This document shows positions 18,733 through 27,375 of a stretch of 37,158 nt of DNA, in pieces (within the stretch, counting starts at the first letter, position 1; each line of letters starts with the position of its first letter). The stretch is from Candidatus Gottesmanbacteria bacterium RIFCSPLOWO2_01_FULL_43_11b (GTDB taxonomy: Bacteria > Patescibacteriota > Microgenomatia > UBA10105 > UBA927). The stretch lies in NCBI GenBank assembly GCA_001780985.1, contig MFJV01000001.1:308-37465 (forward strand), given 5' to 3'. Made by a program: the position numbers and the translations under genes. Below the pieces are notes generated by a model that did no database searches, had not been told where the DNA came from, and worked only from the letters and a program-made list of their open reading frames with translations.

Positions 18733-20703
18733 ATGGGCAAATTTAAACTTCAATCAACATTTCAACCTACCGGAGATCAGCCTCAGGCTATAGAAGCTCT
18801 TGTAAAGGGACTAAAGTTAAAATTACCCGAACAGGTGCTCATAGGAGTCACTGGGAGCGGGAAAACGTTTACTATGGCAAATGTTATCGCAAACGTTCAA
18901 AGACCTACATTGATTATTTCCCACAATAAAACACTTGCAGCACAGCTTTACCAGGAATTTAGGGATTTCTTTCCCAATAACGCGGTAAGCTACTTCGTTT
19001 CTTACTACGATTACTACCAACCGGAAGCATACATTCCGCAAACCGATACATACATAGAAAAAGAAACGGAAATTAACGAGGAGATAGATAAACTCCGGCT
19101 TGCCGCAACAACAAACCTTTTAACTCGAAAGGATACGATTATCGTAGCTTCAGTTTCGTGTATATATAACATTGGCTCTCCCAAGGAATACGGTCATTTT
19201 GTGCTTGAACTTCGTCCGGGAACAAAAGTAACCCGGGAAAGTATTTTTGATCGTTTGGTTGATCTTCAATACAGCAGAAGCGATTATGGTTTTCACCGGG
19301 GTACATTTCGTGTTCGGGGCGATACAATAGACCTTTTTCCGGCCTATGAAGATTCTGCAATCCGAATTGTCATGGGCAGTAGCGGAGTTATTTCACTTGA
19401 TCGAAGAGATCCGTTAACCGGTAAAAAAATAGAAGATCTTCCTGCCACAGTCATTTACCCGGCAAAACACTATATGACCGATCCGAGAATGTATAAGGAT
19501 GTATTTGCTCAAATACGGCAAGATATGGAAGAACGAGTCAAATATTTTACGAAAAATAAAAAATTTATTGAGGCACAGCGTATCCGGGAACGCGTTACCT
19601 ATGATCTGGAGATGATCCAGGAAGTGGGATTTGTTAACGGTATAGAAAATTACAGCCGGTACTTTGACGGGAGAAAGCCCGGAGAGCCTCCGTATACACT
19701 CCTTGACTATTTTGAAGAAGCAGCAGGCCGTGACTATTTATTGTTTATCGATGAATCACATATGACGGTGCCTCAGATTCGTGGCATGTACCATGGCGAC
19801 AGAAGCCGAAAGCAAACGCTTATTGATTACGGATTCCGTCTCCCTGCTGCAATTGACAACAGACCTCTTCGGATTGAGGAATTTCTCCGTCGTATGCCGC
19901 AAACCGTTTACGTTTCCGCCACACCTAGTGAATGGGAGGTAAGTCGGGCAGAGACGGTGGAGCAGTTGATCCGACCAACTGGCTTAGTTGATCCGGCAAT
20001 TGATGTTCGCCCTAGTTCCGGCCAAATCGAAGATCTCATCTCTGAAATTCAAAAAAGAGTAGTAAAAAAAGAACGGGTACTTGTTACGACACTGACGAAG
20101 CGTACGGCAGAGGATTTATCTAAATTCCTTAAAGACCGCGGTATTAATGTTCACTATTTACACTCAGACATCATCACTCTTGAACGAAGTGATATTTTGG
20201 CGGATTTACGGGGCGGAGTTTACGACGTTATTGTAGGGATCAATTTACTTCGGGAAGGACTGGATCTGCCGGAAGTATCGCTTGTGGCAGTTCTCGATGC
20301 GGATAAAGAAGGATTTCTGAGAAGCCGTGTGAGTCTTATTCAAACCATGGGAAGAGCTGCACGGCACGTTGCCGGACAGGTGATTCTTTATGCCGATACA
20401 ATGACAGGATCGATGAGAGAGGCAATCGAAGAAGTGACAAGGAGAAGGAATATTCAGCTTGAATACAATAAAAAACACGGCGTTACTCCCAAAAGTATTT
20501 CAAAGCCAATTCGATCACGATTGGTTGAAAAGGTAGAAGAGATAAAAGAAGAAATGAAGGTAGAATCCATGACGCCAATGGATAAAAAGAAAGCCATTGT
20601 TCGCTATACCAAGCTTCTGAGAGAATCGTCACGCGATCTCGATTTCGAATCCGCCGCCCGCTTCCGAGATCTTCTCACTCAACTTCAAGGAGACTCCTCG
20701 TAG
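18733..20703 (+). CDS. uvrB: excinuclease ABC subunit B
   Basis: FKLQSTFQPTGDQPQAIEALV, GVTGSGKTFTMANVI, YYDYYQPEAYIP, GINLLREGLDLPEVSLVAVLDADKEGFLRS; start 18733 preferred. Confidence 0.97.
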   Translation: MGKFKLQSTFQPTGDQPQAIEALVKGLKLKLPEQVLIGVTGSGKTFTMANVIANVQRPTLIISHNKTLAAQLYQEFRDFFPNNAVSYFVSYYDYYQPEAYIPQTDTYIEKETEINEEIDKLRLAATTNLLTRKDTIIVASVSCIYNIGSPKEYGHFVLELRPGTKVTRESIFDRLVDLQYSRSDYGFHRGTFRVRGDTIDLFPAYEDSAIRIVMGSSGVISLDRRDPLTGKKIEDLPATVIYPAKHYMTDPRMYKDVFAQIRQDMEERVKYFTKNKKFIEAQRIRERVTYDLEMIQEVGFVNGIENYSRYFDGRKPGEPPYTLLDYFEEAAGRDYLLFIDESHMTVPQIRGMYHGDRSRKQTLIDYGFRLPAAIDNRPLRIEEFLRRMPQTVYVSATPSEWEVSRAETVEQLIRPTGLVDPAIDVRPSSGQIEDLISEIQKRVVKKERVLVTTLTKRTAEDLSKFLKDRGINVHYLHSDIITLERSDILADLRGGVYDVIVGINLLREGLDLPEVSLVAVLDADKEGFLRSRVSLIQTMGRAARHVAGQVILYADTMTGSMREAIEEVTRRRNIQLEYNKKHGVTPKSISKPIRSRLVEKVEEIKEEMKVESMTPMDKKKAIVRYTKLLRESSRDLDFESAARFRDLLTQLQGDSS

Positions 20704-23661: not shown

Positions 23662-25443
23662 ATGATCAAGAGAATTATTTTTTCTCTGTTTATCTTCCTG
23701 TTTTTACTCACGTCAAAAATATATGCTGCAGGGGAATTTCAGGCTGACTATAACGTCAATTACGCAATTTCACCAATTGGTACGACGATCGTAACCCAAA
23801 ATGTAACTCTCACCAATAAACTCACGAATCTCTATCCCAAGCGGTACAACATAACCATTGATAGCGACAAAATTAAAAACGTCATAGCTACTGACGAAGT
23901 CGGAGCAATTACTCCCACAATTGCCTTAAAAGACGGGAAAACAGAAATTGGGATTGACTTTAATACCCAAAATGCCGGTGTTGGGAAAAAAACCCTGTTT
24001 ACGCTTCGATATGAACATGGCGATGTTGCCCACAAAAACGGTCGCATATGGGAAATTCTCATTCCGGGAGTTGAAAATGATCAGGATCTGGGAAATTACA
24101 CGACAACACTCTCTGTTCCATCATCGTTTGGACCTGTTGCGTACCTTAATCCCAGACCCAATCACGGAGCCTGGACAAAAGAGCAGATGGTGCAGGGAGG
24201 AATTGTCGCAGCGTACGGGGATGAACAGGTATTTGCGCTCACTCTCTCGTACTATTTAGAAAATAACTCTGTTGCAAGTAACGATCTGGAAGTAGCCTTA
24301 CCACCTGATACTGCCTTCCAATCAGTCACAATTGATTCAATTTCCCCTCAACCCAAAACAGTCATTCGCGATGCAGACGGAAACTGGCTCGCACGCTATA
24401 ACGTAAATCCGGGGCAAAAGCTCGAAATAACGGCAAATCTTACAGTTCGAATCTACCTTACTCCTAAAAAAGATTGGGTTGCTGAGTCAATTAACCCGGA
24501 TGACTACCTTTCGCCTTCTCGCTATTGGGAGGTTTATGATGCAAGAATCACAAAACTTGCACAAACCTATCGTACTCCACGCCAGATTTATGATTACGTC
24601 GTTACCTCTCTCTCTTATGACTATCAACGTGTCACACAAAATCCCACAAGACTCGGTGCGGTCGGGGTTTTGGTAAATCCAAAATCGGCAATTTGCATGG
24701 AATTTACTGATTTATTTATCGCAATTGCCCGTGCTGCAGGTATTCCTGCCCGGGAAGTAGTCGGATATGCCCATACGACCAATAGCAAATTACGGCCTCT
24801 TTCCCTTGTTTCCGATGTCTTACATGCATGGCCGGAATATTACGACAGCGACAGAAATATCTGGGTTCCTGTGGATCCCACGTGGGCAAATACAACCGGG
24901 GGAGTTGACTATTTTAATACGCTTGATTTTAACCATATTGTATTTGCGATCCACGGAAAATCGAGTGAACTGCCGTACCCTGCAGGATTTTACCGAAATG
25001 CAGCAAAATCAGGGAAAGATGTTCAAGTTAGTTTTGTCGAAACGAAACCAGACGAGATAACGGCAGGACCGCTGACTATAACAATTGACTTTCCTGATAA
25101 AGTAACCGGAGGGATCCGCTCAGCAGGTCATGTTTATGTAAAAAATGAAAGCGGTAATAGTATTTCCCAAGCCAATATTTCCGTTGAATCGAAAGTAGGT
25201 AATATTAATCTATCCAAAGTTGAAAAGAACATTCCTCCTTATGCGTCAGTTGATATTCCTATAGAAATTAAAACAACGTCATTTAGCCTCATGGAAGAGG
25301 GAAGATTAATTGTGAATGTTGATGGGCAAATAGAAACACACTCATTTATTGTCCGACCTATATATTGGATATTTCTTCCCTATGTTGCAGTCGTTGCCGG
25401 TGGTATGATACTTTTCGTCCTATGGAAGTATCTACGGCGCTAA
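23662..25443 (+). CDS. secreted/membrane-anchored transglutaminase-like domain protein
   Basis: N-terminal signal peptide; Cys motif AICMEFTDLFIAIARAAGIPAREVVGY and His/Asp HAWPEYYDSDRNIWVPVDPTW; C-terminal TM helix. Confidence 0.85.
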   Translation: MIKRIIFSLFIFLFLLTSKIYAAGEFQADYNVNYAISPIGTTIVTQNVTLTNKLTNLYPKRYNITIDSDKIKNVIATDEVGAITPTIALKDGKTEIGIDFNTQNAGVGKKTLFTLRYEHGDVAHKNGRIWEILIPGVENDQDLGNYTTTLSVPSSFGPVAYLNPRPNHGAWTKEQMVQGGIVAAYGDEQVFALTLSYYLENNSVASNDLEVALPPDTAFQSVTIDSISPQPKTVIRDADGNWLARYNVNPGQKLEITANLTVRIYLTPKKDWVAESINPDDYLSPSRYWEVYDARITKLAQTYRTPRQIYDYVVTSLSYDYQRVTQNPTRLGAVGVLVNPKSAICMEFTDLFIAIARAAGIPAREVVGYAHTTNSKLRPLSLVSDVLHAWPEYYDSDRNIWVPVDPTWANTTGGVDYFNTLDFNHIVFAIHGKSSELPYPAGFYRNAAKSGKDVQVSFVETKPDEITAGPLTITIDFPDKVTGGIRSAGHVYVKNESGNSISQANISVESKVGNINLSKVEKNIPPYASVDIPIEIKTTSFSLMEEGRLIVNVDGQIETHSFIVRPIYWIFLPYVAVVAGGMILFVLWKYLRR

Positions 25444-26678
25444 CTTCATTACCCCACCAACCAGGTGTTTACTTGTTTCGGGATAAAAGTAATCACGTTA
25501 TTTACGTTGGGAAAGCAATTGATCTATTCCGGAGGGTTAAAAGTTACGTACACACTCCACTTTTTGAACATATAGCAGATATTCAAACAATTGAAACAAC
25601 AAGTGAATTTGATGCCCTGCTTCTTGAAGCAAAACTCATCAGAGAATTTAAACCGAAGTTTAATGTAATAACAAAAGACGATAAATCCCCTCTTTTTATC
25701 GTCTTGACACTTTCTCAACCACTCCCGAGAGTGCTGTTTGCACGAAAGACTCAGCTTCGTGCCTTAGTTACAAAAAGAGGGGATAAAGTATTTGGCCCGT
25801 TTCAATCAGCCAAAATGACTTATTCGCTCATGCAGCACATTCGGAACGTTATCCCATTTTGTCAACAGAAAAGAAGAGATGGGAAACCGTGTTTTTATAC
25901 ACACCTTGGTCTTTGTTCACCATGCCCTTCAGTATTATCGAAAAACCCAAATGCGAAAGGGAAACATATCTACCGCCGGAATATGATTCGAATAAAAAAT
26001 ATTTTAAACGGAAAAGCTACATTCGTACTTTCTCAGATGGAAAAAGAAATGCAAAGTCGTGCGAAAGCCATGCGTTTTGAACAAGCACAAGTATTAAGAA
26101 ATCAAATTGCATCGTTTTATGAACTTCTCAAACGGAAATATGACCCTTCGGTATATCTCCACGATGACGGGGCGCAGGATATTTACAGGGAACAAATAGA
26201 GGATCTTGCAAATATTCTAAACTTATCAAACCTGCGCCGTATTGAGGCAATTGATATATCGAATATTTCAGGGGGTTTTGCTACAGGATCGCTCGTTGTT
26301 CTTACAGATGGACGTACGGACAAAGACTGGTATAGACGGTTTCGCATACGTACAGTACGAGGTTCTAACGACACTGCAATGATAACTGAAGTCGTCAGAA
26401 GACGCTTTAAACACGACGATTGGCCAAAACCGGATCTTTTGGTTATTGACGGGGGAAAAGGGCAGGTAAGGGCAGCAGCAGGCGCACCTGTGCCCGTTAT
26501 AGGGCTTGCCAAACGACTGGAGGAAATAATCGTTCCGACTGACATAGGATTTAAAGTACACAGACTTTCCCTTTCCCGGCCGGCAATTCACCTCCTGCAA
26601 AGAATTCGCGACGAAGCCCACCGCTTTGCTCTCCGCTATCACCGCCACCTACGAGGAGTCTCCTTGAAGTCATTCTAG
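25422..26678 (+). CDS. uvrC: excinuclease ABC subunit C, short form without C-terminal HhH region
   Basis: GIY-YIG PGVYLFRDKSNHVIYVGKA; UVR-like helix; RNase H-like AIDISNISGG..PDLLVIDGGKGQ..RDEAHRFALRYHRHLR; ends LRGVSLKSF*. Confidence 0.92.
   Translation: MEVSTALTSLPHQPGVYLFRDKSNHVIYVGKAIDLFRRVKSYVHTPLFEHIADIQTIETTSEFDALLLEAKLIREFKPKFNVITKDDKSPLFIVLTLSQPLPRVLFARKTQLRALVTKRGDKVFGPFQSAKMTYSLMQHIRNVIPFCQQKRRDGKPCFYTHLGLCSPCPSVLSKNPNAKGKHIYRRNMIRIKNILNGKATFVLSQMEKEMQSRAKAMRFEQAQVLRNQIASFYELLKRKYDPSVYLHDDGAQDIYREQIEDLANILNLSNLRRIEAIDISNISGGFATGSLVVLTDGRTDKDWYRRFRIRTVRGSNDTAMITEVVRRRFKHDDWPKPDLLVIDGGKGQVRAAAGAPVPVIGLAKRLEEIIVPTDIGFKVHRLSLSRPAIHLLQRIRDEAHRFALRYHRHLRGVSLKSF
26648..26669 (-). repeat. 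palindromic repeat copy b (CCTACGAGGAGTCTCCTTGAAG), 3' end of uvrC and adjacent to RAYT stop
   Basis: 22/22 identity to the reverse complement of copy a. Confidence 0.85.
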
Positions 26679-26862
26679 ATCTAAAGTAACTTCGGTTATG
26701 GGCTTTATGTCATCAAAATTACCTTGCTCCACGAAGGACCGATAGTTCATATGAGGATTTTTATGAAAAAAATAACTTAGAATACTCTCCGTCGACACCC
26801 ACTCCTGAGAAAACCGGTGTAGGTAATTGCCATATGAAGAATAACCATATTCATCTAACATT

Positions 26863-26880
26863 CGAGGAGTCTCCTTGAAG
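26863..26880 (-). repeat. palindromic repeat copy c, inside RAYT coding sequence
   Basis: CGAGGAGTCTCCTTGAAG, 18-bp identity with copy b; encodes PFKETPRM in RAYT. Confidence 0.8.
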
Positions 26881-27161
26881 GGGGATAACGATATAGGATT
26901 ACGGTGGATATATTTGGAAAGATAGATAAATTGGTTTTCATCTGTAACTCGTACTCCCTTATATGTTCCTTGAAAAAGTGGACCGATTCTTCGGTAATGG
27001 GAGTTAAAATACCTGACGTATTTCGTGGCAAGTGATCGCATGAAATGATCGATTCCATGATCAGAATTCTGTTTCACAAAGAGATGAAAATGGTTTGGCA
27101 TTAGACAGTAACACAGTAGAGTAATCTCACCATTATAGTTTTTGAGTTTTCGTGATGGTGG

Positions 27162-27183
27162 CTTCAAGGAGTCTCCTTGTAGG
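27162..27183 (+). repeat. palindromic repeat copy d, inside RAYT coding sequence
   Basis: CTTCAAGGAGTCTCCTTGTAGG; encodes PLQGDSLK on the RAYT strand. Confidence 0.85.
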
Positions 27184-27353
27184 GGTTCTGCAGTTAAATA
27201 GATTTCGAGGTAGGACAAAAACGTTTTATAATCACGGTCCTCCTGAAAAATTGTTCTTTTATCCACACCGCGATTATAAATATGATAGTAACCACCAGGG
27301 TCATACTCCTTTAGAGCATTTTTAGCAGGCATTAACTTAGTATACACCTTTAT

Positions 27354-27375
27354 CTTCAAGGAGTCTCCTCGTAGG
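27354..27375 (+). repeat. palindromic repeat copy e, upstream flank of RAYT
   Basis: CTTCAAGGAGTCTCCTCGTAGG; inverted relative to copy b on the other flank. Confidence 0.85.

Follow-up and report, generated by a model that had tools for sequence, protein, structure and literature searches.

A probable REPtron-like unit, a RAYT-type transposase gene with flanking and internal cognate palindromes, in a Gottesmanbacteria genome

Introduction

REPtrons of E. coli, Pseudomonas and S. maltophilia combine a RAYT (TnpA-REP) transposase of the Y1/HUH fold with flanking and dispersed hairpins, the loop and stem of which are specific to the family and the third pair of which is imperfect in many copies. 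Canonical GTAG REPs carry an unpaired 5' GT[AG]G, are extragenic and occur in more than 100 copies. Intragenic REPs have also been published, including copies in uvrA, uvrB and dnaE (PMC3733652). In TnpA-REP subclass 2.4 (RAYT group 4), double-foot palindromic REPs lie in frame inside the tnpA-REP gene, mainly between HuH and Y (PMC6006769), and subclass 2.1 (RAYT group 1) is tabulated without REP (PMC6006769). TIRtrons (with the transposase TIRYT) consist of a tyrosine transposase between terminal repeats, some of them self-complementary; these repeats form dispersed families without GTAG tags (PMC3733652). A literature search for RAYTs in CPR, Microgenomates or Patescibacteria found no relevant paper.

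The locus described here lies in a 37,158-nt stretch (the window) of a Gottesmanbacteria genome represented by one closed contig of 1,020,299 bp (1.02 Mb). It resembles the REPtrons in fold, in flanking and dispersed hairpins, in family-specific loop and stem and in the imperfect third pair, and differs from them in the low copy number of the palindrome (3-28) and in two internal in-frame copies within the transposase gene.

Anatomy of the locus and its transposase

A preliminary description of this DNA had placed a Y1 transposase gene between two inverted copies of a short palindrome. Both copies are present, CCTACGAGGAGTCTCCTTGAAG at 26648-26669, immediately next to the stop codon of the RAYT (26670-26672), and CTTCAAGGAGTCTCCTCGTAGG at 27354-27375. 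However, the arrangement is not merely a flanking pair, as each RAYT gene has four copies, two of which are coding. The features of the window are as follows.

20683-20703, + strand: palindrome copy a, forming the C-terminus and TAG stop of UvrB (LQGDSS-stop)
25365-26678, + strand: uvrC ORF (TIGR00194), convergent with the RAYT gene; copy b supplies the last codons
26649-26669, - strand: palindrome copy b, directly 3' of the RAYT stop; the other strand is the UvrC C-terminus (LRGVSLK-SF-stop)
26670-27332, - strand: RAYT-like Y1 (HUH) transposase of 220 aa (PF01797), with ATG at 27332 and the open frame running on to 27431
26860-26880, - strand: palindrome copy c, internal position 2, in frame, encoding PFKETPRM (approximately residues 151-158), after the Y141 motif
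27162-27182, - strand: palindrome copy d, internal position 1, in frame, encoding LQGDSLK (approximately residues 51-57), before the HUH motif
27339-27344, - strand: TATACT, a -10-like hexamer recognised from sequence, about 7 nt before the RAYT ATG
27354-27374, - strand: palindrome copy e, 5' of the RAYT start; coding strand CTACGAGGAGACTCCTTGAAG, loop GAC

Copy e and the upstream copies of orthologues share a position, -36 to -59, and TATAMT-like hexamers precede the start in several RAYT orthologues too. Given the -10-like TATACT, copy e would lie near the -35 region. The position of the palindrome at the end of UvrB is also occupied in a related genome, G018, with loop GAG.

The RAYT ORF matched PF01797 (Y1 transposase) at 36.4 bits (cut-off 23), and matched the NCBIfam equivalog model for REP-associated tyrosine transposases, NF047646, at 36.6 bits, below the cut-off of 80; it is a relative of that family, not a member by that model. 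In an alignment of 35 sequences H81, H83, Y141 and N145 are invariant, the HUH motif being H81-F82-H83. Y141 is presumed to be the catalytic tyrosine, and the spacing of Y141 and N145 is the same as that of Y115 and N119 in the E. coli protein. A structure model of the RAYT (pLDDT 87.4) had as its best Foldseek match 4er8, a TnpA-REP with its REP hairpin, followed by the IS608 and ISDra2 transposases, several of them hairpin-bound. The palindrome-coded stretches form low-confidence loops of the model (means 55 and 69), distant in sequence from the HUH strand and the Y helix. No match to the RAYT was found in a PDB sequence search or in PHROGs. RAYTs are regarded as single-copy in a genome and not autonomously mobile. 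The genome encodes one RAYT of this clade and one distant Y1 transposase (L062, G000:C1:65219-65848), for which no matching palindrome was detected; its relatives have 1-11 divergent copies. IS200/IS605 elements are characterised by near-identical multiple copies, subterminal hairpins and excision as a whole; here flanking hairpins are present, and copies within a genome have diverged.

Like subclass 2.4, the locus has in-frame copies within the gene and double-foot palindromes. It differs in that the internal copies lie before HuH and after Y, in its motifs (NHFH, FQ and YIHRNP here, NH[IFV]H, WQ and YIxNNP in subclass 2.4; PMC6006769) and in foot polarity, which is reversed (5'-CTAC...GTAG-3' here, 5'-GTAG...CTAC-3' there). 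The host lineage differs as well. By motif comparison only, subclass 2.1 is closest (NH[YF]H, FQ, Y..NP; PMC6006769); unlike that subclass as tabulated, the present family has cognate palindromes. With TIRtrons it shares a tyrosine transposase flanked by repeats that are also dispersed, but internal copies are not described for them (PMC3733652).

The palindrome and its dispersal

The consensus of the palindrome is CTWCRAGGA-nnn-TCCTYGWAG, a 9-bp stem with a 3-nt loop. A pattern search of the window allowing up to 3 mismatches gave five matches, beginning at 20683, 26649, 26860, 27162 and 27354, and none in dinucleotide shuffles. When 116 distinct CPR sites are taken together, bases outside the consensus pair at positions +-1 (C/G) and +-2 (64/116 paired, 32 expected), beyond which pairing stops; the unit is therefore approximately 25 nt long, its stem comprising 11 bp and its loop 3 nt. 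The third stem pair at these sites is frequently an A-A or T-T mismatch, and the DNA hairpins predicted for mismatched copies of the present genome are weak (-1.5 to -4.5 kcal/mol).

A whole-genome search located 16 sites, as compared with 0-2 matches in controls, which rules out chance occurrence. Thirteen fit the generalised consensus CTWCRAGGAGNCTCCTYGWAG perfectly and the other three deviate from it at a single position. With no site at two or three mismatches, a tail of decayed copies is absent. The loop is GAC/GTC in all 16. The preliminary description had held that a lack of enrichment elsewhere would speak against its proposal, in which a CPR genome encodes a RAYT-type transposase and contains dispersed copies of the cognate palindrome; the repeat is enriched both here and in relatives, and the proposal is supported.

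Four of the 16 copies are those of the RAYT gene, one on either side of it and two in the ORF, and about 12 others are dispersed. Approximately nine are gene-internal and four lie at gene ends. Internal copies were found in the genes for PheT, MiaA, DnaE, a ComEA-like protein, a glycosyltransferase, a PolX-like protein and a sugar-dehydrogenase-like protein; besides those of UvrB and UvrC there are two more C-terminal copies, and two copies are at probably non-coding places. Unless a family search is cited, host-gene names reflect a reading of the sequences and their alignments. The site at IleS is probably 5' of the true start, and that in PolX (984449), where relatives have a native PTGRLLG, is the weakest among the host-gene sites.

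The 3'-foot GTAG that had been recorded earlier is indeed present. However, it lies within the stem, where a 5' CTAC or CTTC pairs with a 3' GTAG or GAAG (with a GCAG variant), and it is not the unpaired 5' guide of canonical REPs. The canonical elements are also extragenic and far more numerous, whereas many of the 16 copies here are intragenic. Read from its sequence, the system would be REPtron-like, yet with neither the 5' GTAG nor the extragenic placement of canonical REPs.

Distribution in related genomes

The palindrome was found in 9 of 138 near genomes and in 13 of 374 genomes of the class. Contigs carrying it are named Collierbacteria, Beckwithbacteria, Gottesmanbacteria, Saccharibacteria, Portnoybacteria, Roizmanbacteria and Pacebacteria, and single scattered matches in unrelated phyla resemble chance. 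No RAYT was detected in G018 (87% complete) or G303, though both carry palindromes. In G018, direct copies at 1750 and 2169 of L118, 419 bp apart and with longer common flanks (tatccc...acttata), lie at the ends of two genes, one of them uvrB and the other its neighbour. A GatA-like ORF of Portnoybacteria (L101:1322-1370) contains two palindromes of the same stem, 28 bp apart and both in frame, with loops CTG and CAG. In Saccharibacteria, distant RAYTs (L108, L147, L063) are flanked by palindromes of the same stem (loop TTA/TAA) and are without internal copies; L108 also contains another RAYT, the palindrome of which is unrelated. Some Collierbacteria genomes have multiple loop types and multiple RAYTs, which blurs one-to-one matching there. 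Collierbacteria proteins (L068, L138, L137, L081, L204) contain other recurrent in-frame peptides (LPAGRQ, AQSRDL, MDSGSEPGMT, SGQARGPA), which look like further coding-repeat families.

Matching of transposase and palindrome

Palindromes at four positions (approximately -36 to -59, 141-177, 446-485 and 658-698 bp) were found in 11 RAYTs, the present one and ten others at 57-67% identity, from Gottesmanbacteria-, Collierbacteria- and Beckwithbacteria-type genomes; a few of them have no clear copy at one of the four. With the reverse complement allowed, the copies of any one gene share their loop triplet, which varies from gene to gene (GAC, GAG, CAG, CCA, TCA).

Internal position 1 reads L(Q/R)GxS(L/S)K in genes of the present palindrome class, and copy b lies between convergent genes, as expected if the repeats were conserved merely as peptide, through an artefact of protein alignment, or were ordinary terminators. 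However, the second internal copy of an orthologous RAYT (L067) is inverted and read in a different frame at the same position, which rules out conservation of the protein only; the repeat is conserved as DNA, and the possibility of a purely protein-level repeat, raised in the preliminary description, falls. Loops change as well, the majority of copies lie within ORFs, copies occur in unrelated proteins, and other family members have unrelated stems at the same positions. An explanation by peptide or terminator is therefore barely credible.

Those other stems were identified by a de novo hairpin search of the wider family; among them are CCTGCAGGGCCAGGCCCTGCAGG, present four times in G057, TGACAAGGTGCGACCTTGTCA and TGGAAGGGTCGGACCCTTCCA. 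Of 61 related Y1 transposases, mostly from Microgenomates, 30 contain internal palindromes, at either or both of two fixed sites. Among the 31 genes with flanking and internal hairpins, the arms match at 7.45 of 8 positions within a gene, as compared with 4.91 when genes are shuffled, and none of 1000 shuffles gave so high a value. On a tree of the 61 transposases built with the palindrome residues masked, internal copies are clustered (17 changes, 26.7 when shuffled). The stems differ between tree neighbours, as in L296 and L299 of one genome, which are 69% identical and have the arms CTGCAGGG and CTTCAAGG. That the hairpins change sequence together across relatives indicates that they are the transposase's own recognition tags. 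In L284 the copies differ from each other at one or two paired positions, possibly representing a transition between types. The upstream and internal hairpins of L038 are mutually inside-out, AGGGATCAACCC...GGGTTGATCCCT and AGGGTTGATCCC...GGGATCAACCCT.

A second palindrome type, CCTGCAGGG, was sought in seven genomes; it has 28, 5 and 4 copies in the three that encode a matching RAYT and none in the other four. In an ArgS-like ORF of G240 (L320), the frame appears broken shortly 3' of a palindrome of this type, which may reflect a pseudogene or an assembly error.

These data also bear on Rickettsia-type palindromic elements (RPE), selfish coding palindromes with an unspecified route of spread, to which the RAYT gene would be just another victim. 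RPE too are read in frame within housekeeping genes, where many of the present copies lie, and genes of DNA repair and replication are affected here as in published lists of intragenic REP and RPE (PMC3733652). However, a gene that was only a bystander would not be expected to follow the repeat, and here the palindrome type is particular to each RAYT and occupies set positions at its gene; away from that gene, the second type is confined to genomes with the matching RAYT. The present family further differs from RPE in its cognate transposase and its unit of about 25 bp. Spread in the manner of RPE is thus unlikely.

Palindromes in host genes

Compared with sister genomes, the length of the host protein is unchanged at the palindrome in GatA, YchF, DnaE, PolX and SgdH, as it is in CobO compared with PDB 4hut; it is increased by 1 aa in RecR, 2 aa in RadA and at the end of UvrB, 4 aa at the end of TrxB and 6 aa in RpiB. 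The remaining host sites fall in variable linkers and are uninformative on this point. The change in conserved contexts is therefore 0 to +6 aa, not the full insert that distinguishes RPE, and a simple insertion of 24-25 bp is absent from every conserved, alignable site compared. At the DnaE, GatA and SgdH sites, codons at conserved residues match those of relatives in 6 of 49 cases, as compared with approximately 30-50% in the flanks, which points to wholesale replacement and not to a few point mutations. YchF is an exception: the same place is occupied in four sister genomes by a variant of the palindrome, CTGCRAGGA-nnn-TCCTYGCAG, and this site is therefore older. As judged from these alignments, the palindrome in conserved host proteins usually appears to replace native codons with little or no change in length. 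Selection for protein length may contribute to this neutrality.

Codon replacement with so little length change would also suit a chromosome-organising or uptake motif (parS, matS or DUS-like), arising in place by point mutation and selection with no transposition. Also in its favour, eight of the 13 palindrome loci in the genome are no more than 110 kb from contig coordinate 0 (nominal p of about 0.002, obtained post hoc and relative to the contig coordinate). However, the low codon match at the three sites, the patchy distribution across the class, and the family-wide copies at the RAYT gene with their coordinated stem changes argue against such a motif, which is considered very unlikely.

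Proposed mechanism and significance

The locus is best explained as a REPtron-like unit, in which a single-strand-DNA Y1/HUH RAYT (TnpA-REP) transposase would recognise the hairpin, and a probability of about 0.82 is assigned to this reading. Its anatomy, the dispersal and fixed positions of the palindrome, the matching of transposase and palindrome and the coordinated change of flanking and internal copies were all observed. Counting against it are the NF047646 score below its cut-off, the palindromes of G018 and G303 in the absence of a detected RAYT, the blurred matching in some Collierbacteria genomes and the weak predicted hairpins. The RAYT would bind the folded single strand via stem and loop, as supported by the S. 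maltophilia REPtron, where cleavage depends critically on the 3-nt loop of the REP (PMC8266576). It would then nick the hairpin strand and copy or move the palindrome to new sites, among which survival would be limited to in-frame, tolerated events. The internal copies may track the flanking ones through conversion by this same activity, or through a requirement for all four, for example in autoregulation. Since the upstream copy lies just 5' of the TATACT near the start, binding there could regulate the RAYT gene.

It is possible, and is put forward tentatively, that there is no clean insertion and that single strands made by the RAYT overwrite partly matching stretches in a conversion-like manner. 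This would give both length-neutral entry into essential genes and internal RAYT copies that retain the sequence of the flanking ones while specificity evolves. The proposal is drawn from comparison with sister genomes rather than with exact ancestral sites.

In this family the presumed recognition site of a transposase forms part of its own coding sequence and stays matched to the flanking sites, and the repeat has entered conserved genes almost length-neutrally. The family bears on the question of how REPs spread, and provides dozens of natural transposase-palindrome pairs in which stems and loops have been switched, and the rules of recognition should therefore be readable from sequence and testable.
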